From Arenimonas sp. SCN 70-307 (GTDB taxonomy: Bacteria; Pseudomonadota; Gammaproteobacteria; Xanthomonadales; Xanthomonadaceae): 64,000 nt of DNA. Position 1 is the first letter of the stretch, and the number at the start of each line of letters is the position of its first letter. The stretch spans positions 1 to 64,000 of the forward strand of contig NZ_MEDO01000005.1 in NCBI RefSeq assembly GCF_001724815.1, read 5' to 3'. This document shows positions 4,312 through 60,296 of this stretch, in pieces. Made by a program: the position numbers and the translations under genes. Under the pieces are notes generated by a model. That model saw only the letters and a list, made by a program, of their open reading frames with translations, was not told the DNA's origin and did no database searches.

Positions 4312-5097
4312 ATGGACCTGATCGACATCGGCGCCAACCTGGGCCACGAAAGCTTCGACCACGACCTCGACGCCGTGCTGGCGCGGGCGCGCGCGGCCGG
4401 GGTGAACCGGCTGGTGGTCACCGGCGCCAGCCGCGCCGGCTCGGTGCGGGCGCTCGAGCTCGCCAAGGCGCATCCGGGCCTGCTGTGGGCCACGGCGGGC
4501 GTGCATCCGCACCATGCGGTGGAATGCACGGCCGAGGCCATCGCCGAACTGCGCGCGCTGCAGGCCGAGCCCGAGGTGGTGGCCGGCGGCGAGTGCGGCC
4601 TGGACTACCACCGCGACTTCTCGCCGCGGCCGGCGCAGCGCATGGCCTTCGAGCGGCAGCTGGAACTGGCGGTCGAAACGCAGCTGCCGCTGTTCCTGCA
4701 CCAGCGCGATGCGCACGGCGATTTCCTGGCCATCCTGCGCGAGTTCGAGGGCAAGCTTGGCCCGGTGGTGGTGCATTGCTTCACCGGCACGCGCGAGGAG
4801 TGCTACGACTACCTCGACCGCGACTGGCACATCGGCATCACCGGCTGGCTCTGCGACGAGCGCCGCGGCAAGCACCTGCGCGAATTCGTCAAGGACATCC
4901 CGGCGCACCGGCTGATGGTGGAAACCGACGCGCCCTACCTGCTGCCGCGCACCGTGCGCCCCATGCCCAGCCACCGGCGCAACGAGCCGATGTACCTGGC
5001 CCACATCGTCGAGGAACTCGCCCGCGACCGCGGCGAGTCCGTCGAAGCGACCGCGGCGGCCACCACCGCCACCGCCGCCGCCTTCTTCCGCCTCTGA
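4312..5097 (+). CDS. tatD: TatD family metal-dependent deoxyribonuclease
   Basis: This 261-residue TIM-barrel hydrolase begins MDLIDIGANL, like true TatD proteins (IGVNL) rather than the HxH-starting YcfH group. Metal and active-site motifs are in place: GVHPHH, GECGLDYHRDF, HQRDAH, HCFTGTREE and ETDAPYLLPR. TatD is known as a 3'-5' exonuclease involved in DNA repair and turnover. It is divergent from the serine hydrolase, with 76 bases between the two starts. The A of its TGA stop is also the first base of the palindrome at 5097. Confidence 0.93.
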   Translation: MDLIDIGANLGHESFDHDLDAVLARARAAGVNRLVVTGASRAGSVRALELAKAHPGLLWATAGVHPHHAVECTAEAIAELRALQAEPEVVAGGECGLDYHRDFSPRPAQRMAFERQLELAVETQLPLFLHQRDAHGDFLAILREFEGKLGPVVVHCFTGTREECYDYLDRDWHIGITGWLCDERRGKHLREFVKDIPAHRLMVETDAPYLLPRTVRPMPSHRRNEPMYLAHIVEELARDRGESVEATAAATTATAAAFFRL

Positions 5098-5160
5098 AGA
5101 AACGGGGTCAGGTTCACTTCCTGCGGCCGGCCGCAGGAAGTGAACCTGACCCCGTTTCTT
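5097..5160. repeat. 64-bp perfect palindrome, copy 1 of the GGGGTCAGGTTCACTT family
   Basis: Two 32-nt arms meet without a loop. The outer part is AAGAAAC followed by GGGGTCAGGTTCACTT; the core is CCTGCGGCC and its complement. It fills the gap between convergent tatD and the gene ending at 5169, and could terminate transcription from both sides (stem followed by TTTCTT). Confidence 0.95.
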
Positions 5161-5168
5161 GATGCCGG

Positions 5169-6476
5169 TCAGTCGTCGACGGGGAGGCCGTGGCGGCGGC
5201 CGAAGTCGAGGGCTTCGTTGCGGACGCGCTCGTTGAGGTCCTTCATGCGCTGGCGGTGCAGCTTGCGGCAGTCGGTGCCGGCGCGGCCGGAGGGGCAGGC
5301 GTCCAGGGCTTCCTGGATCGCCGTCGCTTCGGCCTGCCACGCAGGCAGCTGGCTGCCGAAGGCCATCGATTCCGCCAGGCCCTGGCCGGTGAAGGCGGTG
5401 ACGAAGCGGTAGTCGCTGCTGTCCACCGACTGTTCGGCCGGGCCGATCTCGACCAGGTCCATCACCAGGTCGCCGCCGTCGAGGTCGCCGCCCTCCCAGC
5501 GCGTGCGGTGCACCAGGCGGTTGGCGCGGATGCGCGTGTCCTTGAACACGCCCACGCCGGCGCCCAGGAAGGGCATCTGCGTGGCGATCGAACTGGCGCG
5601 CCGGCCGACCCACATCTGCAGCATGATGCCGTCGCCCTCGCCGCGGATGCCCTGCACGTTGCCGCCCGGCCCCTCGCCCAGGGTCTGCGGCGTGCGCGGG
5701 ATCGAGTCGAGGAAATTGCGGTGCAGGCTCATGTCGCGGAACCAGCCGAAGGCGGAGCCCAGGTCCTCGCCCAGCAGCAGGCAGGCCGGGCCGATGTCCT
5801 GGTGCTTGCCGCAAACGAACACGTCGCCATCGGCCTGGCGCACCGCGAAGTGCACCTCGCCCTGCGGGTAGTTGCCGCCGCCGGGCATCCAGTTGCCCAT
5901 CAGGCCCGGCAGGAACAGCTGGCTGTTGTCGGCGCTGTTGACGAAGTAGGTGATCTGGCCGAGACCCTCGGAGGAGTCGATGAGCTGGCGGATCAGCAGG
6001 TCGAAACGATACGTCCCCATCTCCGACTCGGGATTGGGCGGGAAGCGGCTGTTGGCCACGAAGGTGGCCTCCACCCGGCGACGCATCTCGGCCAGGCGCT
6101 CTTCCTCGGCGACGTCGATGAAGGTTTCGCCGTGCGCGATCCAAGCGGCTTCCGTGCCCGATTCCACCACCGGGATCGGCGGCAGCTCGAAGGGGTTCGG
6201 CGCCACGCCGAACTTCTCGATCTGCTCGCCCGCCAGCGCCCGCGCCTGCGGGCTGCCCGACTCGACGATGGGCAGGTTGGGCGCGAACGGATCGCTGGCC
6301 GAGGCCGGCGCCGGCATCGTCATCTCGCCGGCGGCGCGCGCCTCGGGGCTGCCGGACTCGACCACGTCCGGCGGCGGCGGCGCGAAGGGATTGGGCAGCA
6401 CGCCGGTGGCCGCCAGCACCGCGCCGGCGAACACCACCACCGCGCCCACGCCGAAGGCCTTGCCGGCGCGGCTCAC
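5169..6476 (-). CDS. uncharacterised membrane-anchored protein with VESGS repeats
   Basis: I do not recognise this 435-residue protein. A hydrophobic N-terminal segment (about 8-25) suggests a signal anchor with the rest in the periplasm. Residues about 27-117 hold three imperfect repeats of the form P-NPF-xPP-VVESGSPEARA-GE (about 27-51, 61-84 and 92-117). The remaining ~315 residues form one domain with no familiar motif; it has three cysteines, in VCGKHQ, GPACLL and DACPSGRAGTDC. The GTG start overlaps the stop of the upstream gene (GTGA), and that gene in turn overlaps the OmpA-family gene, so the three form one tight operon. Confidence 0.7.
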   Translation of the reverse strand: MSRAGKAFGVGAVVVFAGAVLAATGVLPNPFAPPPPDVVESGSPEARAAGEMTMPAPASASDPFAPNLPIVESGSPQARALAGEQIEKFGVAPNPFELPPIPVVESGTEAAWIAHGETFIDVAEEERLAEMRRRVEATFVANSRFPPNPESEMGTYRFDLLIRQLIDSSEGLGQITYFVNSADNSQLFLPGLMGNWMPGGGNYPQGEVHFAVRQADGDVFVCGKHQDIGPACLLLGEDLGSAFGWFRDMSLHRNFLDSIPRTPQTLGEGPGGNVQGIRGEGDGIMLQMWVGRRASSIATQMPFLGAGVGVFKDTRIRANRLVHRTRWEGGDLDGGDLVMDLVEIGPAEQSVDSSDYRFVTAFTGQGLAESMAFGSQLPAWQAEATAIQEALDACPSGRAGTDCRKLHRQRMKDLNERVRNEALDFGRRHGLPVDD

Positions 6477-7009
6477 GGCAGCCCCCGTTCGGCGATGCGG
6501 CGGGCGATGGCCTCGAGTTCGCTGCTGGCCTGGAGGTATTTGTTCTGCTTGCCGTCGTCGACGTTGAAGTAGCGCAGTTCGATCACGCGGTCCCCCAGGG
6601 CGAAGCTGACGTTGAATTCCATGCGGTGGCTGGCCAGCGGGTCAGGCGCACGGAAGTGCACCGCCGCCGCGCCCAGGCCCTCGGGCCGCGACTCGCCGAA
6701 GCGCCGGCCGCCGTCGCCGCGCGCGATCGATTCGATGGTGCGCACCGCGCCGGCGGCATCGCGCGCCGGCGACACCATGAACACCAGTTCGTCGCTGAAG
6801 CGGTCCTCGCCGATGCTGTAGAGGCGGCTGCAGTGGCGCGCGTCCTCGGCGACCACCCCGCTCGCGCGTCGTTCGATGCCGGCGGCGCGCTCGGCGCCGA
6901 TCACCGCGGCGATGTCGCCGACCGGGAACAGCGCGTCGCACCAGGCCGAGGGCTCGGCCGCCGCGGCACCGCCGGAGGCCAGCAGCAGGACCAGCGCGAG
7001 CCGGCTCAT
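6473..7009 (-). CDS. small exported protein of unknown function
   Basis: The 178-residue product starts with a clear signal peptide (MSRLALVLLLASGGAAAAEP). The mature part contains two cysteines (in AWCDALF and ARHCSRLY) that could form a disulphide. I do not recognise the family. It is the middle gene of a three-gene operon: its ATG overlaps the stop of the OmpA-family gene (ATGA) and its stop overlaps the GTG of the next gene. Translational coupling is therefore likely, and a shared envelope function is inferred from the OmpA partner. Confidence 0.7.
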   Translation of the reverse strand: MSRLALVLLLASGGAAAAEPSAWCDALFPVGDIAAVIGAERAAGIERRASGVVAEDARHCSRLYSIGEDRFSDELVFMVSPARDAAGAVRTIESIARGDGGRRFGESRPEGLGAAAVHFRAPDPLASHRMEFNVSFALGDRVIELRYFNVDDGKQNKYLQASSELEAIARRIAERGLP

Positions 7010-8124
7010 CGCTTCACCAGCTCGACGCGACGGTTGAGCGCGCGCCCAGCCTCGCTGGTGTTGGGCGCCACCGGTTCGCTGGCGCCGGCGCCGCGCGAAC
7101 GCAGGCGGCGATCCGGCACGCGGTGCTCGATGACCAGGGCCGAACGCACGGCCAGCGCGCGCTCCTCGCTCAGGCGCTGGTTGGCGGCGGCATTGCCGAC
7201 CGAATCGGTGTGGCCGACGATTTCCAGGGTGAGCGTCGGGTCGCGGCGCATCAGCTCGGCTACCTGCGCAAGGGCGTCGTTCGACTCGGGCTTGAGCGTG
7301 GCCTTGCCGGTGTCGAAGTAGATGCCGTCGAGCCGCACCACGCCGCTGGCGGCCAGCTCGGCCGCGAGTTCGTCGGCGCTGACGCCGGCCTGGCCGGTCT
7401 GCATCGCTTCGCCCTCGACCACGTAGACCCAGCTGCGCTGCTTGTTGACCATGACCGCCACGCTGATCGCGCTGGCGCCCACCCGGCCCTCGGCGGCGAG
7501 GTAGCGGAAGTCGCCGCCCACGCCGATGTTCATGTCGGCCACGCGCATCCAGTTCGACTCGCGCGTGCCGGTGCCGCCGCACTCGTCGCGGCCGGCGCAC
7601 TGGTGCACCACGCGCAGGCCCTGGCCGCGCAGCGCCTGCTCGTAGTTGCGCGCGATCTCCAGCGTCGAGCGGCCCTTGGGATTGTCGTAGATGGTCTTGG
7701 TGACGCGACCCTCGACCTGCCGGCTGCGCAGGTCGCCGTTGCTCTCGCGGCCCACGACGAAGGCGTAGGCGTCGAAGGCCAGCACCTTCTCCTCGCGCTG
7801 GCTGGAACCGGCGTAGGGCAGCACGCGGAAGGCGGGGCCGGTGGCGGCCTGTCCGCGGGCGCCTGCCGGCGCGGCCACGACGCGGCCACCGGCATCGACG
7901 TACTCCACCGGCTCGCCGCGGCGCGCGGCCTCCGCGGCGCAGCGCTCGTCGCCCAGCGCGCAGCGGGTGGCGCGACGGACCTCGCGGTCGACGGCGCGTT
8001 CGACTTCGGATTGCACCGCACGCTCGGCGGTGCGTTTGACGGACCGCCCCACGTCCTGGGCCGCGGCCGGGGCGGCCAGGGCAAGGGCGAAGGCAAGGCA
8101 GGCAAGGTGGCGTTGCAGGCTCAT
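7006..8124 (-). CDS. DUF4892-OmpA family envelope protein
   Basis: The 372-residue protein has a signal peptide (MSLQRHLACLAFALALAAPA), a Cys pair in TRCALGDERCA, and a central region resembling DUF4892 (about 95-240; YDNPKGRSTLEIARNYEQAL). The C-terminal OmpA-like peptidoglycan-binding domain (about 260-372) contains YFDTGKATLKPES, VGHTDSVGNAAANQRLSEERA and NRRVELVKR. It should sit in the periplasm or outer membrane and bind peptidoglycan. It is the first gene of an overlapping operon with two unknown exported proteins. The palindrome at 8204-8282 lies just upstream of its leader. Confidence 0.85.
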   Translation of the reverse strand: MSLQRHLACLAFALALAAPAAAQDVGRSVKRTAERAVQSEVERAVDREVRRATRCALGDERCAAEAARRGEPVEYVDAGGRVVAAPAGARGQAATGPAFRVLPYAGSSQREEKVLAFDAYAFVVGRESNGDLRSRQVEGRVTKTIYDNPKGRSTLEIARNYEQALRGQGLRVVHQCAGRDECGGTGTRESNWMRVADMNIGVGGDFRYLAAEGRVGASAISVAVMVNKQRSWVYVVEGEAMQTGQAGVSADELAAELAASGVVRLDGIYFDTGKATLKPESNDALAQVAELMRRDPTLTLEIVGHTDSVGNAAANQRLSEERALAVRSALVIEHRVPDRRLRSRGAGASEPVAPNTSEAGRALNRRVELVKR

Positions 8125-8203
8125 CGACAGGCTCCCATGTGCGCCGGGGGGCGCTCGACACAGAAACCTTATCGCAAACCGGCGGCCCGGCGTGCCAAGA
8201 AAC

Positions 8204-8282
8204 CAAGAAACGGGGTCAGGTTCACTTATGACGGTTGGCCCGGCGGGCCAACCGTCATAAGTGAACCTGACCCCGTTTCTTG
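8204..8282. repeat. 79-bp palindrome, copy 2 of the GGGGTCAGGTTCACTT family
   Basis: The same outer arms as copy 1 (CAAGAAAC followed by GGGGTCAGGTTCACTT) enclose a different, longer self-complementary core (ATGACGGTTGGCCCG and complement around one central base). It ends four bases before the TAG of the ABC permease gene and separates that operon from the OmpA operon transcribed in the same direction. Confidence 0.95.
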
Positions 8283-8286
8283 TTTC

Positions 8287-9054
8287 CTAGCTGCGCAGGC
8301 CGGTGCCCTTTTTCAGCAGCCACAGGCCGAGCAGGCCCAGGCCCAGGGCGAAGCCCAGCATCAGCGCATAGGCCGTGGCCATGGACACGTCGCTCTGGCC
8401 CAGCAGGCCGTAGCGGAAGGCGTTGACCATGTAGAAGATCGGGTTGAGGTGGGTGGCCGCCTCGGCCCAGGCCGGCAGCAGCTTCACCGAATAGAACACG
8501 CCGCCCAGGTAGGTGAGCGGGGTGAGGATGAAGGTGGGCACGATGGCGATGTCGTCGAACTTCTTGGCGTACACCGCGTTCACGAAGCCCGCCAGCGAGA
8601 AGATGATGGCGCCCAGCAGCACCGTGCTCAGCGTCACCAGCGGGTGCGGGATGCGCACCTTGGTGAACAGCATGGCGATGGCCAGCACGATCGCGCCCAC
8701 CATCAGCCCGCGCAGCACGCCGCCGGCGACGTAGCCGCCCAGGATCACCCAGTTGGGCATCGGGCTGACCAGCATCTCCTCGATGTGGCGGCCGAACTTG
8801 GCGCCGAAGAAGCTCGAGCTGATGTTGCCGTAGGCGTTCTGGATGATCGACATCATCACCAGGCCCGGCACGATGAAGTCCATGTAGGTGATGCCGTCCA
8901 TGGTGCCGATGCGCGAGCCGATGAGGTTTCCGAAGATCAGGAAGTACAGCGTCATCGTGATCGCCGGCGGCACCAGGGTCTGGCCCCAGATGCGCAGGAT
9001 GCGCGCGACTTCGCGGCGGGCGATGGTGTAGAGCGCGACGAGGTTCGGGCTCAT
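8287..9054 (-). CDS. yadH: ABC-2 type exporter permease, YadH-like
   Basis: The 255-residue membrane protein has about six hydrophobic segments and the ABC-2 permease pattern, including the loop GRHIEEMLVSPMPNWVILGGY. Its length and sequence (MSPNLVALYTIARREVARILRIWGQTLVPPAIT) match the YadH group of single-domain permeases. The start codon overlaps the stop of the ATPase gene upstream (ATGA), so the two are translated together as one exporter. The substrate of YadGH-type transporters is not established. Confidence 0.9.
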   Translation of the reverse strand: MSPNLVALYTIARREVARILRIWGQTLVPPAITMTLYFLIFGNLIGSRIGTMDGITYMDFIVPGLVMMSIIQNAYGNISSSFFGAKFGRHIEEMLVSPMPNWVILGGYVAGGVLRGLMVGAIVLAIAMLFTKVRIPHPLVTLSTVLLGAIIFSLAGFVNAVYAKKFDDIAIVPTFILTPLTYLGGVFYSVKLLPAWAEAATHLNPIFYMVNAFRYGLLGQSDVSMATAYALMLGFALGLGLLGLWLLKKGTGLRS

Positions 9055-9986
9055 GCCTGGCCCTCCGGCTTGGCGGTCATGCGCATGAAGAGTTCCTCGA
9101 GGCGGTTGGACTTGGTGCGCATCGAGCGCACCTTGATGCCGGCGGCGTCGAGCGCGGCGAACACGCGGTTGAGCTCCATCTCGCGCGGCATCTCCAGGTC
9201 GATGGTGTGCTCGTCCCCGGCCACCAGCGTGGCGCCTTCGATGGCAGGCAGCGCGGCCGGCAGGCGGCCTTCGACGTCGAGCAGGAAGCCCTCGACGTCG
9301 AGCTTGGCCAGCAGCGACTTCATCGGGCCCTGCTCGATGATGCGGCCGTGGTCGATGATGGCCAGGTTGCGGCACAGGCTCTCGGCTTCCTCCAGGTAAT
9401 GCGTGGTGAGGATGACCGTGGTGCCGGCGGCGTTGACCTCCTTGAGCGTCTTCCACATGCCGCGGCGGATCTCGATGTCCACGCCCGCGGTGGGCTCGTC
9501 GAGGATCAGCAGGCGCGGCCGGGTCATCATGGCGCGGGCGATCATCAGCCGGCGCTTCATGCCGCCCGAGAGCGTGCGCGACATCTTGCGCGCCTTGTCC
9601 CACAGCTGCGCCCGCTTGAGCTCCTCCTCGGCGCGCGCCAGCGCCTCGGCGCGCGGCACGCCGTAGAAGCCGGCGTAGTTGACCAGGATGTCGAGCGGCT
9701 GCTCGAACATGTTGAAGTTGATCTCCTGCGGCACCAGGCCGATCTGGCGCATGGCCTCGGAGCGATTGGCGTGCAGGTCGATGCCGAACACCTTCACCTC
9801 GCCCGCGGTCTTGTTCACCAGCGAGCTGACGATGCCGATGAGGGTGGACTTGCCGGCGCCGTTGGGGCCGAGCAGGGCGTAGAAATCGCCGGGCGCGACG
9901 TCGAGCGAAACGCCCTTGAGGGCTTCGACGCCATTGTCGTAGGTCTTGCGGAGATCGCGGATCTCCAGCGCGGGTTGGCTTTGCAT
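9051..9986 (-). CDS. yadG: ABC exporter ATP-binding protein, YadG-like
   Basis: This 311-residue ATPase has Walker A (GPNGAGKST), the signature LSGGMKRRLMIARAMMTRP, Walker B LLILDEPTAGVD and the switch TTHYLEEAE. A roughly 80-residue C-terminal extension follows, as in YadG/NatA-type subunits. An AGGAG ribosome binding site lies just before the ATG at 9986. It pairs with the overlapping permease gene downstream. The gene reads away from the divergent ferredoxin reductase gene. Confidence 0.93.
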   Translation of the reverse strand: MQSQPALEIRDLRKTYDNGVEALKGVSLDVAPGDFYALLGPNGAGKSTLIGIVSSLVNKTAGEVKVFGIDLHANRSEAMRQIGLVPQEINFNMFEQPLDILVNYAGFYGVPRAEALARAEEELKRAQLWDKARKMSRTLSGGMKRRLMIARAMMTRPRLLILDEPTAGVDIEIRRGMWKTLKEVNAAGTTVILTTHYLEEAESLCRNLAIIDHGRIIEQGPMKSLLAKLDVEGFLLDVEGRLPAALPAIEGATLVAGDEHTIDLEMPREMELNRVFAALDAAGIKVRSMRTKSNRLEELFMRMTAKPEGQA

Positions 9987-10034
9987 GGGACTCCTGGGGC
10001 CGCCTCGACGCTGCGCCGACGCGGCAGGGTGCTT

Positions 10035-10040
10035 ATTATA
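10035..10040 (-). promoter_or_regulatory. -10 element for the yadGH operon
   Basis: A perfect TATAAT on the minus strand lies 48 bases before the yadG start. No good -35 is visible in the very GC-rich sequence upstream. Confidence 0.45.
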
Positions 10041-10106
10041 GGCGCCTCGCCGCCCCCGGCCCCGGGACCGCGGCCGGTACACTGCATCCCGCTCCCGGAG
10101 CCCGCT

Positions 10107-10859
10107 TTGGCCATCGTGCACTTCCCCCTCCGCCTCGTCGGCAGCCACATGCTGGCGCCGTCCGTGCGCCACCTCGCCTTCGCCCGCGACGACGGCCAGC
10201 CGCTGGACTTCATCCCGGGCCAGTTCATCCAGGTCCATTTCAAGTACCCCGACGGCACGCCCACCAAGCGCAGCTACTCGCTGGCCACCATGCACGACCA
10301 CGCGCTGGCCCCGGGCGAGGCGGTGGAAATCGCCGTCAGCTACGTGCCCGGCGGCGCCGCCACGGCCCTGTTCGAGGCCCTCGACGAGGGCCAGCAGATC
10401 GAGGCCTCCGGCCCCTACGGCCGCTTCTGCCTGATGCCGGCCGACGCCAACCGCCGCTACCTGCTGGTGGCCACCGGCACCGGCGTCACGCCCTACCGCG
10501 CCATGCTGCCCAGCCTGGCGCGGCTGATCCGCGACCGCGGCGTCGAGGTGGCCCTGGTGTTCGGCTGCCGCGCGCCGGCCGAGCAGCTCTACCGCGACGA
10601 CTTCCTGGCCTTCGCGGCCGAACACCCGGGCTTCCGCTACATCACCTGCTTCAGCCGCGAGCTGCCCGGGGTCCCGCGCGACGACGACCGCCGCGGCTAC
10701 GTGCAGGATGCGCTGGCCGGCCTCGCCCCGTCGGCCGAAGGCGACATCGCCTACCTGTGCGGCAATCCCAACATGGTCGACGCCTGTTTCGAGGCGCTCA
10801 AGGCCGCCGGGCTGCCGGTGCCGCACATCCGCCGCGAGAAGTACGTCTCGAGCAAGTAG
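10107..10859 (+). CDS. fpr: ferredoxin-NADP(+) reductase
   Basis: The 250-residue product is the right size for the bacterial Fpr group. It shows the FAD-binding RSYS motif (55-58), the phosphate-binding YGRF segment and the NADP-binding GTGVTPYRAML (about 122-132), and it ends VSSK. It moves electrons between NADPH and ferredoxin or flavodoxin, often under oxidative stress. The TTG start at 10107 was chosen because GGAG sits six bases upstream and a TACACT -10-like box lies at 10078-10083. A GTG three codons later is less well placed. Confidence 0.9.
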   Translation: MAIVHFPLRLVGSHMLAPSVRHLAFARDDGQPLDFIPGQFIQVHFKYPDGTPTKRSYSLATMHDHALAPGEAVEIAVSYVPGGAATALFEALDEGQQIEASGPYGRFCLMPADANRRYLLVATGTGVTPYRAMLPSLARLIRDRGVEVALVFGCRAPAEQLYRDDFLAFAAEHPGFRYITCFSRELPGVPRDDDRRGYVQDALAGLAPSAEGDIAYLCGNPNMVDACFEALKAAGLPVPHIRREKYVSSK

Positions 10860-10933
10860 GCCGGCTGTCACGTTCCGGCCACCCGGACCGTCTGTCATCC
10901 TGAGGCCTGCTTCGGGCTTTGGATGGAGACGCC

Positions 10934-12384: not shown

Positions 12385-12388
<4 letters not shown>
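10934..12388 (+). CDS. secreted alpha/beta hydrolase, S33 peptidase family
   Basis: The 484-residue protein begins with a signal peptide (MKPLLLPLALATLLAAPAAEA). It has the oxyanion segment FFAGGPGQSA, VDQRGTG, the nucleophile elbow GGSYGT (Ser at about 191), the acid in SGELDPVTPP and the catalytic His in GKGQGHI. This matches the tripeptidyl/prolyl aminopeptidase family (TAP-like C-terminal domain), which trims peptides in the periplasm or outside the cell. Its stop overlaps the start of an ABC exporter ATPase (ATGA), so the peptidase and exporter are probably one operon, perhaps handling a peptide. Confidence 0.88.
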
Positions 12389-13115
<727 letters not shown>

Positions 13116-31041: not shown

Positions 31042-31045
31042 CTGG

Positions 31046-48872: not shown

Positions 48873-48961
48873 AAGAAAGGGGGTCAGGTTCACTTCCGGG
48901 GACGCGGCACCGGTGCAACGCGAAGTTCCTGCGCCCGGAAGTGAACCTGACCCCCTTTCTT
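48873..48961. repeat. palindrome copy 3, with a 33-base loop
   Basis: Arms of 28 bases (AAGAAAG then GGGGTCAGGTTCACTT and CCGGG) enclose a 33-base centre that is only weakly self-complementary. In both arms one base differs from the other copies (AAAGGGGG instead of AAACGGGG), with the compensating change. Its last base overlaps the GGDEF gene stop codon. Confidence 0.92.
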
Positions 48962-50228: not shown

Positions 50229-50286
50229 AAGAACGGGGTCGGGTTCACTTTCGTGAAACCGGAAGTGAACCTGACCCCGTTTTTTT
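50229..50286. repeat. palindrome copy 4, degenerate
   Basis: AACGGGGTCGGGTTCACTT and AAGTGAACCTGACCCCGTT flank a short centre (TCGTGAAACCGG). The left arm has one G for A change, so this copy is no longer perfect. It is followed by a run of T and overlaps the rhomboid gene stop codon. Confidence 0.9.
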
Positions 50287-52049: not shown

Positions 52050-52075
52050 GGAGATCTCCGGTGCGGGCCTGTCGT

Positions 52076-52112
52076 CCGCCACGCAACGCGCTCCCCGGAA
52101 GGAGCGTGGCGG
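52076..52112 (-). promoter_or_regulatory. expression-platform hairpin of the alx leader
   Basis: CCGCCACGC and GCGTGGCGG form a long stem with an inner CGCTCC/GGAGCG pair. It lies between the aptamer and the alx ribosome binding site, and its 5' side adjoins the aptamer 3' end. Confidence 0.55.
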
Positions 52113-52222
52113 GCGGGCGAAGGTCTTGCTCGCAGGCGAGGCCTGCCTGCCGGACCGGGGACCTGGACAGGTGCCAGGGCCCGTGATGACGATCTCGGCA
52201 GCGGGAGCTACTCCCCTTCGGG
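52110..52222 (-). ncRNA. yybP-ykoY manganese riboswitch
   Basis: On the minus strand the leader contains GGGGAGTAGC (52216-52207), a TCATCAC segment and, near its end, GCAAGACCTTCGCCC (52129-52115). These are the invariant blocks of the yybP-ykoY family, in that order, and the element sits directly before a TerC/Alx gene, its usual target. Ends are approximate. Confidence 0.85.
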
Positions 52223-52332
52223 GGGCAGAGTCTGCCACGAATCCTTACCTTGACGTCAATCACGCCCGCCCCGGACGGCCTCGGGTTAGGCTAGCCCGGT
52301 TGGGCCGGAAGGCCGCGGGATCCGGGGCGGGC

Positions 52333-53499: not shown

Positions 53500-53527
53500 A
53501 AACCCGGCGGCACCGGGCCGGCGCCGG

Positions 53528-53533
53528 TAGAAT
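53528..53533 (+). promoter_or_regulatory. -10 box of a probable leaderless methyltransferase transcript
   Basis: TAGAAT lies six bases before the ATG at 53540; the space is too short for a ribosome binding site. Confidence 0.4.
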
Positions 53534-53539
53534 GGCGCG

Positions 53540-54712
53540 ATGAACAGCCCCGCCCTGCCCGTCGTCCGGCTCAAGATCGAGCGCCGCTCCAACCACCCCT
53601 GGATCTTCCAGAAGATGGTGGAAAAGCCCGAGGCCAAGCCGCGCCCGGGCGCGGTGGTGGACATCGTCGACAACACCGGCAGCTGGGTCGGCCGCGGCTT
53701 CTACAACGGCCACTCGCGCATCGCCCTGCGCGTGCTCACCGAGGACCGCCACGAGGCCATCGACGAAGCCTTCTTCCTGCGCAAGATCGCCGACGCGGTC
53801 GCCCTGCGCCGCGAGGTGCTGCGCCTGGATGAGCACACCGACGCCTGGCGCGTGGTGCACTCCGAGGGCGACGGCCTCTCGGGCCTGGTGGTCGACCGCT
53901 ACGGCGACCTGCTGGTGGTGGAGTTCTTCTCGGCCGGCGCCTTCCGCCACCGGGAGTGGATCTACGCCGCGTTGCGCGAGCAGTTCCCGGGCTGCCGCTT
54001 CTACAGCTTCGCCGAGGAGCACGTACAGAAGCAGGAGAGCTTCGACTTCCGCGCGCCGCCGGCGCCGGAGCCGAGCATCGTCACCGAGAACGGCCTGAAG
54101 TTCCGCGCCACGCCCGGCAGCGGCCACAAGACCGGCTTCTTCGCCGACCAGCGCGACAACCGCGAGTTCCTCTCGCGCTTCACCGCCGGCAAGCGCGTGC
54201 TCGACATCTGCTGCAACTCGGGCGGCTTCGCCATCTATGCCAAGGCCCGCGGCGGCGCCGACGAGGTCACCGGCATCGACCTGGACGAGGAAATCCTCGA
54301 GGTCGCCGAAAAGAACGCGCGCCTGAACCACGCCAAGGTGAAGTTCACCCAGGCCGACCTCTTCCCCTACCTGCGCGACGCCCAGCAGCGCGGCGAGCAG
54401 TGGGACGTGGTGATCCTCGACCCGGCCAAGCTCACCCGCGACCGCGACCAGGTGATCCCGGCGCTGAAGAAGTACAACGACATGAACAAGCTGGCCATGC
54501 AGGTGGTCCGCCCCGGCGGCATCCTGCTCACCTGTTCGTGCACCGGCCTGGTCAGCGAGGAGGAGTTCCTCGACATGGTGCGCCGCGCGGCGTTCTACGC
54601 CGGCCGCACCGTGCAGGTGCTGAAGGTGGCCGGCGCCGGCGGCGACCATCCGTTCATGGCGCACGTCAAGGAAAGCCGTTACCTGAAGGCCGTGTTCTGC
54701 CGCGTGATGTAA
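53540..54712 (+). CDS. rlmI: RlmI-like 23S rRNA cytosine methyltransferase
   Basis: The 390-residue protein has an N-terminal PUA domain (1-75), an EEHVE-type central region and a C-terminal SAM-dependent methyltransferase domain (VLDICCNSGGFAIYAKARGG, GIDLDEE, ILDPAKL, LLTCSCTGLV). This is the COG1092 family; E. coli RlmI makes m5C1962 in 23S rRNA. The Cys in TCSC agrees with a 5-methylcytosine mechanism. Confidence 0.88.
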   Translation: MNSPALPVVRLKIERRSNHPWIFQKMVEKPEAKPRPGAVVDIVDNTGSWVGRGFYNGHSRIALRVLTEDRHEAIDEAFFLRKIADAVALRREVLRLDEHTDAWRVVHSEGDGLSGLVVDRYGDLLVVEFFSAGAFRHREWIYAALREQFPGCRFYSFAEEHVQKQESFDFRAPPAPEPSIVTENGLKFRATPGSGHKTGFFADQRDNREFLSRFTAGKRVLDICCNSGGFAIYAKARGGADEVTGIDLDEEILEVAEKNARLNHAKVKFTQADLFPYLRDAQQRGEQWDVVILDPAKLTRDRDQVIPALKKYNDMNKLAMQVVRPGGILLTCSCTGLVSEEEFLDMVRRAAFYAGRTVQVLKVAGAGGDHPFMAHVKESRYLKAVFCRVM

Positions 54713-54746
54713 GCGTTCGCGCCGCGCACACGCCCGGCGCGCGCCA

Positions 54747-55340
54747 ATGACCGCCATGCCCGACACGCTCGACGACGTCTTCGCCCACGCCTGGGCCCGC
54801 CTGCGCGCGGGCGTCTTCGGCCGCCACGACCCCTTCCACCAGGGCGTGCTGGCCAACACCAGCGACGAGGGCCCGCAGGCGCGCTACGTGGTGCTGCGCG
54901 CCGCCGACGCCGCCACCGGCACCCTGGCCTTCCACACCGACCGGCGCAGCCCGAAGTTCGCGGCCCTGGCCGCCGACCCGCGCCTGGCCTGGGTGTTCTT
55001 CGGCCACGGCGAACAGCTGCGCATCGAGGGCCGCGTGCGCCTGCACCACGACGACGACGCGGCCCGCGCCACCTGGGCCGCGATGCGCCCGCTGGCGCGC
55101 CGCACCTATGCCGTGCCGCTGCCGCCGGGCACGTCGGTGGACGCGCCGGAAGACGCCGGCCTGCCGGGCCTGGGCACGCCGGCCGACCCGGCCGCGCTCG
55201 AGGCCGCGCGCGTGCACTTCGTGCTGGCCCGGGTCGAGGCCACGCGCCTGGACTGGCTGTCGCTGGCCGCCAGCGGCCACCGCCGCGCCCGTTTCGAGCG
55301 CGGCCACGACGGCTGGCAGGGCCGCTGGCTGGCGCCGTAG
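54747..55340 (+). CDS. pyridoxamine 5'-phosphate oxidase-like flavoprotein
   Basis: The 197-residue protein shows the PNPOx-like split barrel: ARYVVLRAADAATGTLAFHTDRRSPK near the start and LRIEGRVRLHHDDDA in the middle. These may bind FMN. It does not look like the vitamin B6 enzyme PdxH and may be a related general FMN-binding protein. It follows the methyltransferase gene by 34 bases. Confidence 0.8.
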   Translation: MTAMPDTLDDVFAHAWARLRAGVFGRHDPFHQGVLANTSDEGPQARYVVLRAADAATGTLAFHTDRRSPKFAALAADPRLAWVFFGHGEQLRIEGRVRLHHDDDAARATWAAMRPLARRTYAVPLPPGTSVDAPEDAGLPGLGTPADPAALEAARVHFVLARVEATRLDWLSLAASGHRRARFERGHDGWQGRWLAP

Positions 55341-55392
55341 CGCGCGCCGGCATCGGCTAGACTGCGCCACCCGCTCCGCAGGACCGCCGCCC

Positions 55393-56625
55393 TTGGCAGC
55401 CCCCGATCCCGCCGCGCCCACCGTGCGCCGCGCCGCCCTGGCCTTCATCTTCGTCACCGTGCTGGTGGACGTGATGGCCTTCGGCCTGATCATCCCGGTG
55501 CTGCCGCACCTGCTCAAGAAGGTGACGGGCGGCGAGATCGCCGACGCCACGCTCTGGCACGGCCTGTTCGCCACCGGCTTCATGGCCATGCAGTTCCTGG
55601 CGCAGCCCATCCAGGGCGCGCTCTCGGACCGCTTCGGGCGCCGCCCGGTGATCCTGATCTCCAACGCCGGCCTGGCCATCGACTTCCTGATCATGGCGCT
55701 GGCCGAGACGCTGCCGCTGCTGTTCATCGCGCGCCTGCTTTCGGGCGCCACCTCGGCGAGCTTCAGCACGGCCAACGCCTACATCGCCGACGTGACGCCG
55801 CCGGAAAAACGCGCGGCGGCCTTCGGGCGCCTGGGCATGGCCTTCGGCATCGGCTTCACCGTCTCGCCGGTGATGGGTGCCTGGCTGGGCGCGGTGGACC
55901 TGCACCTGCCGTTCTGGGTGGCCGCGGGCCTGTGCGCCGCGAATTTCTGCTACGGCTTCTTCGTGCTGCCCGAGTCGCTGCCGCCCGAGCGGCGCTCGCC
56001 CTTCGAATGGCGCCGCGCCAACCCGCTGGGTTCGCTGCGCATGCTGCGCGCCCACCCCGAGTTGTTCGCGCTGGCCGGCGTGAGCTTCCTGATGGCGCTG
56101 GCGCACCTGGTCTACCCCACCACCTTCGTGCTATACGCCGACTACCGCTTCGGCTGGGGCCTGGAGATGGTCGGCTGGACGCTGCTGATCGTCGGCGTGC
56201 TGACGGTGATCGTGCAGGGTGGCCTGGTGGGCCGCATCGCCCGCACTTTCGGTGACCGCCGCACGGTGCTGATCGGCGCCGTCGCGGGCACGCTCGGCTT
56301 CGCGATGTACGCGCTCGCGCCCACGGGCTACTGGTTCTGGGCGGCGATGCCGGTGGCGGCGCTGTGGGCCGTGGCCAACCCGGCGGTGCAGTCGCTGATG
56401 ACCTCGCGCGTCTCGCCGCAGGAGCAGGGTCGCCTGCAGGGCGCCATCGGCAGCCTCAATTCCATCGCCGGCATCATCGGCCCGACGATGTTCACCCAGA
56501 CCCTGGCCTTCGTCGCCGCCAACGAGGTGCGCGGCCCGCTGGCCGGTGCCAGCTTCTGGCTGGCGGCACTGATGGTGGCGCTGGGCGGCCTGCTGGCCTG
56601 GCGCGCCACCACCACGCGGCCCTGA
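55393..56625 (+). CDS. MFS transporter, TetA-like 12-helix type
   Basis: The 410-residue protein has 12 hydrophobic segments, the MFS loop LSDRFGRRPVIL after helix 2 and the drug-export-like GFAIGFTVSP-type helix 5 region (GMAFGIGFTVSPVMGAWLG). It resembles the TetA/TCR group of proton-coupled exporters, although the substrate is open. The TTG at 55393 (LAAPDPAAPTVRR) was chosen; a GTG at 55423 is an alternative. A TAGACT -10-like box is at 55358. Confidence 0.85.
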   Translation: MAAPDPAAPTVRRAALAFIFVTVLVDVMAFGLIIPVLPHLLKKVTGGEIADATLWHGLFATGFMAMQFLAQPIQGALSDRFGRRPVILISNAGLAIDFLIMALAETLPLLFIARLLSGATSASFSTANAYIADVTPPEKRAAAFGRLGMAFGIGFTVSPVMGAWLGAVDLHLPFWVAAGLCAANFCYGFFVLPESLPPERRSPFEWRRANPLGSLRMLRAHPELFALAGVSFLMALAHLVYPTTFVLYADYRFGWGLEMVGWTLLIVGVLTVIVQGGLVGRIARTFGDRRTVLIGAVAGTLGFAMYALAPTGYWFWAAMPVAALWAVANPAVQSLMTSRVSPQEQGRLQGAIGSLNSIAGIIGPTMFTQTLAFVAANEVRGPLAGASFWLAALMVALGGLLAWRATTTRP

Positions 56626-56670
56626 CGCCCCCCGGGGTTAGGATGGCGTCCTGAACCCAGGAGCCCCTGC

Positions 56671-57255
56671 ATGAGCAATCCCGTTTCCAAGGCCGAGGCC
56701 GAGGATGCCGTCCGCACCCTGCTGCGCTGGGCCGGCGAGGATCCTTCGCGCGAGGGCCTGCTCGACACGCCGCGGCGCGTGGTGGAGGCCTACGGCGACT
56801 GGTTCGCCGGCTACCGCCAGGACCCGCGCGACTACCTGGCGCGCACCTTCGAGGAAGTCGAGGGTTACGACGAGCTGATCGTGCTGCGCGACATCGAGTT
56901 CGAGTCGCACTGCGAGCACCACATGGCGCCGATCATCGGCAAGGCGCACATCGGCTACCTGCCGGCCGGCAAGGTGGTGGGCATCAGCAAGCTCGCGCGC
57001 GTGGTCGAGGCGTACGCGCGCCGCTTCCAGGTGCAGGAGAAGATGACCGCGCAGATCGCCCGCTGCATCCAGGACGTGCTGCAGCCGCGCGGCGTGGGCG
57101 TGGTGGTCGAGGGCGCGCACGAGTGCATGACCACGCGCGGCATCCACAAGCGCGGCGTGAGCATGGTCACTTCGAAGATGCTGGGCAGTTTCCGCGAGGA
57201 TGCGCGCACGCGCGCCGAGTTCCTGCGCTTCATCGACGTCGGCCCGGGGCGCTGA
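56671..57255 (+). CDS. folE: GTP cyclohydrolase I
   Basis: The 194-residue protein has zinc ligands Cys81 and His84 (SHCEHHMAP) and Cys152 ([10 protein letters not shown]). It makes dihydroneopterin triphosphate, the start of folate and pterin synthesis, and so could also supply the pterin cofactor of PhhA. A CAGGAG ribosome binding site precedes the ATG. Confidence 0.96.
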
Positions 57256-57288
57256 GCCCGGGCCGCTGGCGCCCGCCCGCCGGACGCC

Positions 57289-57294
57289 TATAAT
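57289..57294 (+). promoter_or_regulatory. -10 box of a probable leaderless transcript
   Basis: A perfect TATAAT ends eight bases before the ATG at 57303, so the message should begin at the start codon. Confidence 0.55.
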
Positions 57295-57302
57295 CGGGCT
57301 CG

Positions 57303-57866
57303 ATGAGCGACCCCCGCGCCCACGTCCAAGCCCTCCGCGAGGCCATCCTGGCCGATCCGCCCGCGCAGGCGGGGCAATGGCTGGTGCTGCTCGACTCGCT
57401 CGAGAAGGCCGTGGCGGCCCTGGCCGCCAGCCGCGAGCGCCTGCAGCAGGACGTGGAAGACGCCGAGCACGCCCGCGATGCCGCCAACCTGGCGCGCATG
57501 AAGGTGATGGGCCAGCTCAACACCCTGCAAAAATCCCTGGCGGCGGCCGTGCCCCAGGTGGCGGCCAGCGCCGACGCGCAGAGCGACGCCCAGCGGCGCA
57601 TCGAATGGCTGCTCAGCCACGGCGGTGTCGACGCCGGCGCGGCCGAGGCGGCCAAGACCGCCGAGATGGAAGCGCCCATGCCGGGCCGCGCGGTGCTCGA
57701 GGCCGTGATCGCCGGCGAGCGCAAGTTCACCAAGGCACAGCTCGAGTTCACCATCGCCGAAGCCATGGTGCTCACCGGCTGGCAGATGACGCCGCTCGAG
57801 CTCACCGAAAAGGGCGAGCCCTGGCTGGCCCGGCTGGTACTCGACAACCAGGCGGCGTCGGTTTGA
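57303..57866 (+). CDS. coiled-coil protein of unknown function
   Basis: I do not recognise this 187-residue, Ala-rich protein. Residues about 28-80 look like a coiled coil (LEKAVAALAASRERLQQDVE), and the C-terminal part is a compact helical region (KFTKAQLEFTIAEAMVLTGW). No membrane or signal segment is seen. Its stop overlaps the TTG start of the next gene, so the three genes 57303-58515 form one operon. Confidence 0.7.
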   Translation: MSDPRAHVQALREAILADPPAQAGQWLVLLDSLEKAVAALAASRERLQQDVEDAEHARDAANLARMKVMGQLNTLQKSLAAAVPQVAASADAQSDAQRRIEWLLSHGGVDAGAAEAAKTAEMEAPMPGRAVLEAVIAGERKFTKAQLEFTIAEAMVLTGWQMTPLELTEKGEPWLARLVLDNQAASV

Positions 57867-58207
57867 TCGACCGCCTGCGCGAGCGCTCGCCGCGGGGGCA
57901 CATCGCGCGGCAGGGGCTGCTGGCGCTGGGGCTGGCGGGGCTGCTGGTGCTGGCCGCGTTCATCACGACCGCGTGGCTCGTGGAGCAGTCCGGGTTCGAG
58001 CACGCCACCCTGCTGGTCTTGCCGGTGGGCTTGCTCGGCGGCCTGGCCTGGTGGGTTCCGCTGGGGCGCCCGCGTTGTCCGGGCTGCGGCTATCGCTTCA
58101 CCCGCTTCCTGCAGTACGCCGCGATACTCGAGAAGAAGCCCCGGCACCGGCTGCGGTATTGCCCGCACTGCGGCGTCGACCTTGGCCCCGAGGGAGACGG
58201 CGCATGA
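57863..58207 (+). CDS. zinc-ribbon membrane protein 1
   Basis: The 114-residue protein has two hydrophobic helices (about 16-40 and 48-64) followed by a cytoplasmic zinc ribbon with CPGC and CPHC pairs (about 71 and 102). The TTG start overlaps the stop of the coiled-coil gene, and its stop overlaps the start of the second zinc-ribbon gene (ATGA). It shares its layout with the next protein. Function unknown. Confidence 0.72.
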   Translation: MIDRLRERSPRGHIARQGLLALGLAGLLVLAAFITTAWLVEQSGFEHATLLVLPVGLLGGLAWWVPLGRPRCPGCGYRFTRFLQYAAILEKKPRHRLRYCPHCGVDLGPEGDGA

Positions 58208-58515
58208 GCCTGCGCGAGCACCTGCGGCGGCGCGCGCGAGGTGCGTGGTTGATCCAGCTGGCGGCGTTCGCCGCCATCGTGCTCGTGCTGGCGATGGTGC
58301 CGCCGGGCAGCCGCCCGGGCCTCGTTTTCGGGGCGGCCATGCTTTTCCTCATTGCGTTCGCCTTCGCCCAGGCGCGCATAGCCTGCACGCGCTGCGGCAA
58401 TGCGCTGGGCACCGTCGTCCCGCCCTGGCGCCTGCACCGCGGCCAACCCGCCAAGCGCATCCACCACTGCCCGTATTGCGGCGTTTCCCTCGACGAACCG
58501 GCCCGGGCGCCCTGA
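58204..58515 (+). CDS. zinc-ribbon membrane protein 2
   Basis: The 103-residue protein has two hydrophobic helices (about 14-32 and 39-56) and a zinc ribbon with CTRC and CPYC pairs. The tail (YCPYCGVSLD here and YCPHCGVDLG in the preceding protein) shows that the two genes are tandem paralogues. Function unknown. Confidence 0.72.
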   Translation: MSLREHLRRRARGAWLIQLAAFAAIVLVLAMVPPGSRPGLVFGAAMLFLIAFAFAQARIACTRCGNALGTVVPPWRLHRGQPAKRIHHCPYCGVSLDEPARAP

Positions 58516-58606
58516 ACCTGAACGACAACTCCGGCCGCGCTGGGAATGGCGACCGGACCGGCGCATCCTTGGTCGGGCAAGCCACCCACCCCCGAGGAGG
58601 AATGCC

Positions 58607-59311
58607 ATGAAGAACAAGACCCACCACGTGCTGCTGGCCACCGCCGTTTCCGTCGCCCTGCTCGCGGGCTGCCAGACCACCGGCGGCTATTCGTCGGCGC
58701 CGCGCGACGACGAGCAGGCCGAGCGCGAAGGCATGAGCCGCACCCAGAAGGGCGCGATCATCGGCGCCACCATCGGCGCGGTCGCCGGCCTGCTCAGCGG
58801 CGACGATGCGACCGAGCGGCGCCAGCGCGCCCTGGTCGGCGCCGGCGTCGGCGGCCTGGCCGGCGGCGCCATCGGCCGCTACCAGGACAACCAGGAGCGG
58901 GCGCTGCGCGAGCGCATGGCCGGCACCGGCGTGGACGTCGTGCGCGACGGCGACAACATCACGCTCGACATGCCCGAGGCGATCACCTTCGCCTTCAACT
59001 CCAGCACGCTCAACCAGCGCGCCTACGGCGTGCTCGACCGCGTGGCCGACACCCTGCGCGAGTACGACCAGACCCTGATCGAGGTCGCCGGCCACACCGA
59101 CAGCATCGGCAGCGAGGCCTACAACCAGCGCCTGTCCGAGCAGCGCGCCCAGGCGGTGGCGAACTACCTGATCAGCCGCGGCATCAGCGGCCAGCGCCTG
59201 ATGGTGTTCGGCGCCGGCGAGATGCACCCGGTGGCCAGCAACGAAACCGAGGCCGGCCGCGCCGAGAACCGCCGCGTCGAACTCACCATCGTCCCCATCC
59301 GCCAGCGCTGA
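58607..59311 (+). CDS. OmpA family lipoprotein with glycine zipper
   Basis: The 234-residue protein has a lipobox (LLAGC, Cys22), glycine-zipper repeats (GAIIGATIGAVAGLLSG, GAGVGGLAGGAIG; about 47-95) and a C-terminal OmpA domain (ITFAFNSSTLNQRAYGVLD, VAGHTDSIGSEAYNQRLSEQ, NRRVELTI). It resembles YiaD-like lipoproteins of the outer membrane that bind peptidoglycan. A GAGGAGG ribosome binding site precedes the ATG at 58607. Palindrome 5 follows seven bases after the stop. Confidence 0.92.
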   Translation: MKNKTHHVLLATAVSVALLAGCQTTGGYSSAPRDDEQAEREGMSRTQKGAIIGATIGAVAGLLSGDDATERRQRALVGAGVGGLAGGAIGRYQDNQERALRERMAGTGVDVVRDGDNITLDMPEAITFAFNSSTLNQRAYGVLDRVADTLREYDQTLIEVAGHTDSIGSEAYNQRLSEQRAQAVANYLISRGISGQRLMVFGAGEMHPVASNETEAGRAENRRVELTIVPIRQR

Positions 59312-59317
59312 CGCTCC

Positions 59318-59378
59318 AAGAAACGGGGTCAGGTTCACTTCCCGCGCATCGCGGGAAGTGAACCTGACCCCGTTTCTT
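59318..59378. repeat. 61-bp palindrome, copy 5 of the GGGGTCAGGTTCACTT family
   Basis: Perfect 29-nt arms (AAGAAAC then GGGGTCAGGTTCACTT and CCCGCG) flank a three-base loop (CAT). The core differs from all other copies. It lies between two genes in the same orientation. Confidence 0.95.
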
Positions 59379-59431
59379 TGCCCGGCCATGCCCTAGAATC
59401 GGCGGCAGCGCGGCGCGGGGAGGTGCCTGGG

Positions 59432-60235
59432 ATGTACCTGAAGAAGTTCTTCGGCGAGGTCACCAGCCCGCACCCCTGCGTGAACTGCCGCGGCGACGAG
59501 ACGCTCGGTTTCGGCGTGCGCATGGCCTTCCAGCCCATCCTCGACGTGGCCAGCCGCAGCATCTTCGCCTACGAGGCGCTGGTGCGCGGCGAGAACGGCG
59601 AAAGCGCCGCCGAGATCATCGCGCGCGTGCCGCCCGAGCTGCTCTACCGCTTCGACCAGACCTGCCGCGTGGCCGCCATCGACACCGCCGCGCGCCTGGG
59701 CATGAAGACGCGGCTGTCGATCAACTTCGCGCCCAACGCCGTGTACGAACCGGCCACCTGCATCCGGCTGACGCTTGCCGCGGCCGAGCGCTGCGGCTTC
59801 GACCCGCGCCAGCTGATCTTCGAGGTCACCGAATCGGAGAAGATCCGCGACGTGCCGCACGTGGTGCGCATCATCAAGGACTACCAGGGACGCGGCTTCC
59901 TGACCGCCATCGACGACTTCGGCGCCGGCTACGCCGGCCTGAACCTGCTGGCCGAGTTCCAGCCCGACGTGGTCAAGCTCGACATGGCGCTGATCCGCGG
60001 CCTCGACGGCGACCGCGTGCGCCGCTCGATCACCAGCGGCATCGTCGCCACCTGCCGCTCGCTGGGCTGCGAGGTGCTGGCCGAAGGCGTGGAAACCCTC
60101 GGCGAATTCCGCGAACTGCGCGACATGGGCATCAGCCGCTTCCAGGGCTTCCTGTTCGCCAGGCCCGCCCTCGAAGCCCTGCCCGTCGTGGACCCGGCCC
60201 TCTGGGACCAGCTCGACGCCGCCGGCCAAGCCTGA
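59432..60235 (+). CDS. EAL-domain cyclic di-GMP phosphodiesterase
   Basis: The 267-residue protein is nearly all EAL domain, with EAL at 48-50 (FAYEALVRGE), INFAPNAVY, FEVTESE, IDDFGAGYAGL, KLDMALIRG, EGVE and QGFLF, so it is probably active in degrading cyclic di-GMP. A short N-terminal CxxC (Cys16, Cys19 in HPCVNC) could bind metal or sense redox state. There is no membrane segment. The ATG at 59432 was chosen; GGGGAGG lies 11-17 bases upstream and TAGAAT at 59393. Confidence 0.9.
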   Translation: MYLKKFFGEVTSPHPCVNCRGDETLGFGVRMAFQPILDVASRSIFAYEALVRGENGESAAEIIARVPPELLYRFDQTCRVAAIDTAARLGMKTRLSINFAPNAVYEPATCIRLTLAAAERCGFDPRQLIFEVTESEKIRDVPHVVRIIKDYQGRGFLTAIDDFGAGYAGLNLLAEFQPDVVKLDMALIRGLDGDRVRRSITSGIVATCRSLGCEVLAEGVETLGEFRELRDMGISRFQGFLFARPALEALPVVDPALWDQLDAAGQA

Positions 60236-60296
60236 AAGAAACGGGGTCAGGTTCACTTCCATGCTCAAGCTGGAAGTGAACCTGACCCCGTTTCTT
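60236..60296. repeat. 61-bp palindrome, copy 6 of the GGGGTCAGGTTCACTT family
   Basis: Perfect 26-nt arms (AAGAAAC then GGGGTCAGGTTCACTT and CCA) flank a nine-base loop. It begins directly after the EAL gene stop and ends two bases before the alpha-2-macroglobulin stop, so it fills the convergent gap completely. Confidence 0.95.

Follow-up and report, generated by a model that had tools for sequence, protein, structure and literature searches.

Two-armed palindromes of Arenimonas with constant arms, variable cores and jointly renewed halves

How can the centre of a palindrome differ from copy to copy while its two halves remain mirror images of each other? The question is raised by six palindromes in a stretch of 64,000 nucleotides (nt) of Arenimonas sp. 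SCN 70-307 (NZ_MEDO01000005.1, positions 1 to 64,000), which is called the window here. In a first-pass annotation of the window they were described as a family with constant arms and different, often self-complementary cores, and it was suggested that one arm is copied from the other, for example by fold-back repair or by a transposase of the kind linked to repetitive extragenic palindromic (REP) sequences, a REP-associated tyrosine transposase (RAYT). We compared these elements with the other copies in their own genome (G000, 2.93 Mb in 35 contigs, with the window on contig C5), with the same sites in related genomes and with known repeat families. As a pattern across these genomes, the halves of most elements are renewed together, including base changes and the switch of the arm family on both sides.

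Mirror symmetry in the window and in the genome

All six palindromes were present where they had been annotated (Table 1). An arm comprises 23 nt, namely AAGAAA, a variable base (C or G) and GGGGTCAGGTTCACTT, and the other arm is its complement. Over these 23 nt the arms of copies 1, 2, 3, 5 and 6 are exact reverse complements around centres that differ; in copy 4 they are imperfect (AAGAACGGGGTCGGGTTCACTT versus AAGTGAACCTGACCCCGTTTTTTT). Copy 2 has one extra C/G pair outside its arms. The centres of copies 1, 2 and 5 are self-complementary, as had been proposed, and the arm change noticed in copy 3 is indeed matched, AAGAAAG being faced by CTTTCTT. Pairing in the 43-nt core of element 3 is limited to the outer 5 bp (the inner stem), and in the core of element 6 to 3 bp and one further of 7. 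The space that separates two convergent open frames (59378-60235 on the plus strand and 60299-63991 on the minus strand) is filled by element 6 except for 2 nt, and a near-duplicate of the core of this element, one base off, lies beyond the window at G000:C5:65904-65950. When folded as DNA, each of the six was more stable than all of 200 of its own dinucleotide shuffles (z from -6.5 to -17.5).

Table 1. Palindromic elements in the window (window positions) and the in-frame pair elsewhere in the genome
Feature	Position	Arms	Core or remark
Element 1	5097..5160	5097-5119 and 5138-5160, AAGAAAC type	5120-5137, CCTGCGGCCGGCCGCAGG, perfect 18-nt palindrome
Element 2	8204..8282	8205-8227 and 8259-8281	8228-8258, 15/15 pairs around one middle base
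Element 3	48873..48961	48873-48895 and 48939-48961, AAGAAAG type	48896-48938, 43 nt, long-core class
Element 4	50229..50286	50229-50250 and 50263-50286, mismatched	decayed copy
Element 5	59318..59378	59318-59340 and 59356-59378	59341-59355, CCCGCGCATCGCGGG, 6 bp around CAT
Element 6	60236..60296	60236-60258 and 60274-60296	60259-60273, CCATGCTCAAGCTGG
HrpA elements	G000:C14:341801-341874 and 342905-342978 (L032)		two palindromes lying in frame in the gene of the RNA helicase HrpA

The whole genome was searched for exact pairs of 16-nt arms, GGGGTCAGGTTCACTT and its complement separated by 0 to 60 nt. This gave 43 perfect pairs, while the reversed control pattern gave none; single arms with up to one mismatch numbered at least 54 forward and at least 51 reverse. 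For the 36 of the 43 cores that are at least 10 nt long, the outer five positions were paired in 164 of 180 cases, against a mean of 71 and a maximum of 97 when left and right halves were re-paired between elements; none of 10,000 such trials reached 164. Genome-wide, the cores are self-complementary beyond chance, the point on which the first-pass annotation had made its proposal depend. The variable arm base is matched in 41 of the 43 elements (C/C in 23, G/G in 18, unmatched in 2), and all seven outer arm bases are matched in 26. The arms are uniform across the genome and the core is not. Core lengths are bimodal, with 31 elements at 5-35 nt, 12 at 41-44 nt and none at 36-40 or 45-60 nt, and the 12 long cores have no excess similarity to each other (longest common word 10, shuffles 8-14). 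When 24 core queries were compared by BLAST with about 254 kb of own-genome DNA (overlaps included, E 0.01), almost no donor was found, the exceptions being the duplicates L007/L010 and a match of 15 nt to the L038 core; one query, L025, spanned a tandem arm and so matched arms everywhere. Copying of the cores from nearby DNA was rejected on the outcome of this search.

Most elements are located at the 3' ends of genes, and the form with a core of 41-44 nt also occurs within protein genes, in frame. In 36 of the 43 elements an open frame has its stop codon between -12 and +60 nt from an arm, a count that is slightly high because it includes L002, which sits within a gene; the value for random positions was 14% (n=4000). 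Stop codons flank 16 of the 43 on both sides, as against 1.35% of random positions (n=4000). Four elements, every one of the long-core class, lie in frame within long open frames: L002 in IcmF, two in HrpA, and L031. The IcmF label comes from the NCBIfam family that best matched a 300-residue piece (379 bits, the whole-protein cut-off of 1500 not being reached), and HrpA matched its model with 1289 bits at a cut-off of 723. Rickettsia palindromic elements are likewise inserted in frame in protein genes, a likeness drawn here by description only, and we know of no transposase link for them. The position at gene 3' ends would fit a role in termination, but the in-gene copies argue against this as the general role. 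Hexamers resembling TATAAT or ATAATGG (ACAATGG in L005) were seen about 2-15 nt outside the arm in the flanks of L024, L004, L005, L023 and L028, so that parts of promoters may adjoin some of the elements or be contributed by them.

Arm pairs were present in 9 of the 41 genomes searched, comprising G000, seven more of the genus and one from another family of the order. In the relatives, the 22 of 26 elements with cores of at least 10 nt gave 100 of 110 pairs, again reached by none of 10,000 re-pairings. A wider scan of 84,980 species genomes, covering pairs with cores of 15-45 nt, returned 40 stretches, with titles naming Arenimonas, Lysobacter, Stenotrophomonas, Thermomonas, Dyella, a Xanthomonas metagenome-assembled genome (MAG), Lysobacterales, Lysobacteraceae and Rhodanobacteraceae MAGs, two 'Proteobacteria' MAGs and one Ramlibacter MAG. 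Beyond the genus, the 24 elements with cores of 15 nt or more gave 73 of 120 pairs (mean 52, 0 of 10,000), and the symmetry is weaker there than in the own genome; 16 of these 24 cores are 38-43 nt long within the 15-45 nt searched. In Dyella japonica (L351, 2962-5532) three arm pairs within 2.6 kb share nearly one 22-nt core, unlike the genome of the window. Similar cores, CTTTTC[AG]CTAACA..CGTTAGCGAAAAG, were also seen with these arms in the Ramlibacter MAG (L333, 2475-2535), in an Arenimonas MAG (L363) and at G020:C33:18721-18781; as the Ramlibacter and Arenimonas records are named to different orders, this may reflect transfer, an error in contig binning or an element that took its core along when it moved.

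Arms and cores at orthologous sites

Four sites, IcmF, the two in HrpA (HrpA-a and HrpA-b) and L024, were read in 20, 24, 25 and 25 genomes, respectively, and two arms of any kind were found in 8, 9, 9 and 8 of them; these counts take in a GTAG-type pair of G017 at L024 and other palindromes of G005 and G017 at HrpA-a. The two arms of one element are alike, with averages of 0.96 for IcmF and 0.97 for each of the other three sites (lowest 0.83), values that are biased high since the arm detector requires inverted repeats. Between species, the arms at one site are much less alike (IcmF 0.61, HrpA-a 0.51, HrpA-b 0.62, L024 0.59). Arm likeness was 0.63 across sites in one genome (n=34) versus 0.44 at the same site across genomes (n=128), a difference reached in none of 2000 label permutations; the arms follow the genome, not the site. 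In contrast to the arms, the IcmF cores follow the site (0.31 vs 0.22; 2 of 5000 shuffles, in a comparison that takes in five elements from other genera), a related core being retained while both arms are different. The same is found at L042 in G000 and G021, the genome most closely related to it (80-98% identity in the flanks, mostly near 90): the terminator-like cores are related and differ by a mirrored change, and the arms around them are of different families. Because a related core is kept at IcmF and L042 while both arms differ, the two halves must be regarded as renewed together.

Further comparisons of G000 with G021 gave changes of several kinds. At L041 the related cores differ by a C-G/T-A change that is mirrored, and the variable base is altered in both arms; L025 has the same core in both genomes, L039a has another short core in G021, and at L038 and L039b G021 lacks an element of this kind. 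As for the window itself, the site of element 1 carries in G021 the core CCGCAGATGCGG within AAGAAAG arms, no element in G041 (L093) and G013 (L091), and only an arm piece, CCTGACCCCGTTCTT, in G011 (L095). The site of element 2 has no such element in G021, the sole relative read there, and the gap of element 3 holds in G021 (L197) a palindrome of another arm family, GGGGACAGGTACATTT. The counterpart of element 5, in a stretch of G021 matching this region (C5:35-78), has the core CCGACTTGCCGG, and that of element 6 (C5:944-990) the core CCAGCCATGCGCTGG.

Palindromes of different families lie in the HrpA regions of 9 of 24 and 9 of 25 genus genomes and of some outside the genus, and same-site arm pairs were found in Lysobacter tolerans (IcmF), Stenotrophomonas daejeonensis (HrpA-a) and two Lysobacterales MAGs (HrpA-a and HrpA-b). 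At IcmF a Gly-Lys stretch occurs in armed and in some unarmed species, which at first suggested that cores are always native DNA. This idea was weakened by three observations: the IcmF linkers of the unarmed ingroup have about the same length as the armed ones, some cores at HrpA-b also contain CGGCAAG, and six unarmed HrpA-b sequences share a word of at most 6 nt with the G000 core. At the same intergenic positions longer imperfect palindromes of another kind (CACGGATGAACACTGAT...; GCGGATCAGAGCGGATGGACGCGG...) were seen, at site L024 in G041 (L071) and at site L036 in G041 (L170) and G023 (L171).

One-sided and nested forms were also present. Eight single exact arms were fetched, of which three have a partner at one or two mismatches and five have none. 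In four of the five partnerless cases (not in L321) a perfect stem of 7-15 bp follows within 60 nt, and all five stretches fold better than at least 96 of 100 mononucleotide shuffles. L320 and L322 retain AAGT or AGTG, the first four bases of the absent arm, and therefore both a deletion and an unfinished copy would fit. L322 was read in 17 genomes. G000 has one left arm and a 15-bp hairpin there, and in G021 a related hairpin is enclosed by a pair of arms from another family; the two stems differ by TT in one half and by AA in the other. A different palindrome is present in G012, and the remaining 14 genomes have no perfect stem of more than 7 bp. At L036 in G021 an outer arm pair of one family surrounds an inner pair of another, of which G000 has only the right outer arm.

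A Y1/HUH transposase with the same arms

No transposase of this kind is encoded in the window, as the first-pass annotation had noted, the four Pfam Y1_Tnp matches of the genome being on contigs C10, C4, C27 and C24. A gene flanked by the same arms, for which a search of the genome had been proposed, was found on C10: the Y1/HUH transposase gene G000:C10:17343-18041 is flanked on both sides by tandem arms AAGAAA[C/G]GGGGTCAGGTTCACTT, with AAGAAAC outside and AAGAAAG inside, in mirror order. Its stop codon TGA lies within the inner right arm (GGAAG TGA ACC; L016, 1332-2204). The protein matches Pfam Y1_Tnp with 51.6 bits (cut-off 23) and contains HVH and YIDLNP, the latter agreeing with the published signature Y---NP (PMC6006769). 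The C-terminal helix-turn-helix extension of RAYT group 1 and TnpA-Y1 subclass 2.1 was not found in a single Pfam search at E 0.001, which matched only Y1_Tnp, and a sequence search of the PDB gave no match. The transposase is the likely helper of the six elements, which would be non-autonomous; the association with their arms is shown, and catalysis and mobility are presumed.

The proposed link to REP-type (RAYT) transposases stood in part. The arm-flanked gene is of the Y1/HUH kind, but it scored 65.5 bits against the NCBI model for REP-associated tyrosine transposases, below the cut-off of 80, and the GT[AG]G foot is absent from both arms; membership of the GTAG-type REPs was rejected on these two grounds. 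The transposase itself may belong to RAYT group 1. Two other genes, L018 and L019, pass the same cut-off (114.3 and 88.3 bits); none of six GGGG-type motifs scanned was present in their loci, GTAG repeats nearby not being part of that scan.

Relatives of the C10 transposase gave 28 matches in 15 of the 27 genomes of the genus. When 23 of the 28 were examined for flanking inverted repeats, 20 had a repeat of at least 12 nt and 3 had none; 14 of the 20 have superfamily arms (of the GGG[TA]CAG or CCAGGTTSATTT kind) and 6 have others or unclear ones. Window-type arms flank the transposase in G019, in G021 and in a two-piece gene of G020, while a second gene of G021 has GGGGACAGGTGCATTTTCC, the gene of G004 AAATCCGGGGTCAGAGTG and the gene of G041 GGGGTCAGAGTAAAT, and those in G022 and G011 have GGGGTCAGAGAACATATT-like and GAACCAGGTTGATTTTA types. 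In some cases the arms at a site match the transposase of the same genome, as at L024 in G004 and nearly in G021. The site arms of G041, TACCAGGTTCATTTTT, differ from those of the single transposase gene found in that genome.

A Y1/HUH transposase with flanking inverted repeats other than GTAG REPs fits the terminal-inverted-repeat tyrosine transposase (TIRYT) and TIRtron systems (PMC3733652, PMC6006769), two families of which are described in S. maltophilia (Di Nocera, De Gregorio and Rocco 2013, PMC3733652). The motif GGGGWSAS given there is matched by GGGGTCAG and GGGGACAG, and to the dispersed single, dimeric and grouped copies of those families correspond the 43 pairs and some single arms found here. 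Variable mirrored cores, arm switching at orthologous sites and in-frame HrpA and IcmF copies were found in our material and do not appear in the parts of these two accounts available to us. REPINs (REP doublets forming hairpins; Bertels and Rainey 2011, PMC3116915) are alike in their two inverted 16-mers, in a less conserved, hairpin-forming spacer whose length matters and in their RAYT link; the elements described here differ in lacking the GTAG foot and in having spacers that between most copies are unrelated, not merely less conserved. The arm motif GGGGTCAGGTTCA was not found in the literature searched. The kind of element is thus known, and what appears new, no account of it having been met in the papers as far as available to us, is the mirrored switching of arm families at orthologous sites, some of them in genes.

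How the two halves could be renewed together

The explanation towards which we lean, with moderate confidence, is fold-back copying in a population of TIRYT elements. The six palindromes would be non-autonomous, two-armed members of this population; an element would fold on itself while single-stranded, and a 3' end, either nascent or cut, would copy the opposite half by fold-back synthesis or template switch. Short cores would arise from a long one by loop loss, a step generalised from a single case, the IcmF element of G019, where only TTCCCAAGGGAA lies between the arms. In some systems the 3'-OH left by HUH enzymes is joined or serves as a primer for synthesis (PMC8266576), and template-switch (quasipalindrome) mutation is expected to yield perfect stems and to change several bases in a compensatory way by a single event (Monttinen and Loytynoja 2022, PMC8794818); there it was inferred from the sequence histories of RNA genes, whereas here it is proposed for an element population. 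The original suggestion that one arm is copied from the other has fared well in its prediction, since the halves are not independent within the genome and between species, but the fold-back step we infer only from the pattern across related species, which counts against it. So do several other points. Two pairs of cores inside the own genome, the three similar Dyella cores and those of the Ramlibacter and Arenimonas MAGs indicate that cores sometimes travel with the arms. The cores of HrpA-a, HrpA-b and L024 are not site-specific (1921, 2683 and 2868 of 5000 shuffles gave a value at least as high), unmatched arm positions persist (5 in G010 and 3 in G023 at IcmF, 5 in G023 at HrpA-b), and G004 has only the left arm at IcmF. 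The edits between G000 and G021 at 12 of 14 sites (84 left, 84 right, 5 within) are inflated by the trimming of unequal arms, with the detector's requirement for inverted repeats acting in the same direction as at the four sites. Finally, hairpin-forming spacers with compensatory changes have already been reported for REPINs and discussed as selection (PMC3116915). A related mechanism, which we hold for rather doubtful, is that the arms and not the whole element replicate, the TIRYT rewriting resident hairpins by placing its own arm on one foot, from which it would be copied by fold-back to the other; an old site would then keep its core and wear the arms of the transposase family currently in that genome.

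The main rival, to which we give a substantial though clearly lower probability, is that complete elements, symmetric from the start, were inserted again and again at the same permissive positions, each species using its own family. Whole-element replacement at such hot spots explains HrpA-a, HrpA-b and L024, because core and arms both differ there, in nine, nine and eight two-armed genomes, the cores being unrelated. It is also favoured by leftover arms, namely GGGGACAG, which is retained beside the HrpA-b element of G000 and resembles the G021 arm there, and the G000-type right arm next to another element at L035 in G021, and by the short words shared between the six unarmed genomes and the G000 core of HrpA-b. 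However, since the cores of the own genome, including the 12 long ones, are unrelated, no donor of ready-made symmetric cores is visible, and the IcmF core follows the site though its arms differ. Re-colonisation thus agrees well with the HrpA sites and L024, but less well with IcmF and L042. Ectopic gene conversion among the scattered copies would keep the arms uniform and carry cores between sites, in agreement with arms that follow the genome and with the two core pairs common to sites inside it; acting through 16-23 nt of homology it should spread the cores, most of which are unlike each other, and it appears quite improbable.

In a different scheme, selection for the hairpin, through recognition by the transposase in single-stranded DNA or through termination, would let the halves mutate separately, with the partner base following later. 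The REPIN spacers, for which a length constraint is reported together with the compensatory changes, speak for it, as do the prevalence of gene 3' ends, the folding of all six palindromes far better than shuffles and the unmatched positions in some arms. It is nevertheless unlikely, as most arms are perfect or have one mismatch in spite of many differences between related species, whole arm-family switches on two sides are hard to reach base by base, and mirroring is also seen in the HrpA and IcmF elements, at positions at which a terminator would be harmful to the gene. Equally, there is little probability for a wrapping process, in which a native hairpin such as a terminator acquires arms on its outside and so turns into the core. 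Such wrapping would account for the related hairpin at L042, which lies under different arms in G000 and G021 and in a similar form without arms in G003 and G004, for the nested arms of the transposase and of L036 in G021, which resemble added layers, and for the stems that follow four of the five partnerless arms. But G003 and G004 are sisters in the tree of the compared genomes (three of its inner nodes are supported at 38-55), and therefore one loss of arms explains their unarmed hairpins as well; the single arms may be deletion products, in view of the bases kept in L320 and L322, and at L322 14 of the 17 genomes lack a perfect stem longer than 7 bp. The unarmed IcmF linkers of the ingroup are about as long as the armed ones and therefore may be decayed elements, which also counts against wrapping.

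The dissemination of REP- and TIR-type (terminal inverted repeat) sequences is called poorly understood, although their transposases cut and join single strands in vitro (PMC8266576). The genus is a natural test bed for this, as the same HrpA and IcmF positions carry differently armed, mostly well mirrored elements, and its comparison separates what moves, the arms, from what stays, the site and sometimes the core. Covariation in a stem need not mean selection on RNA structure.

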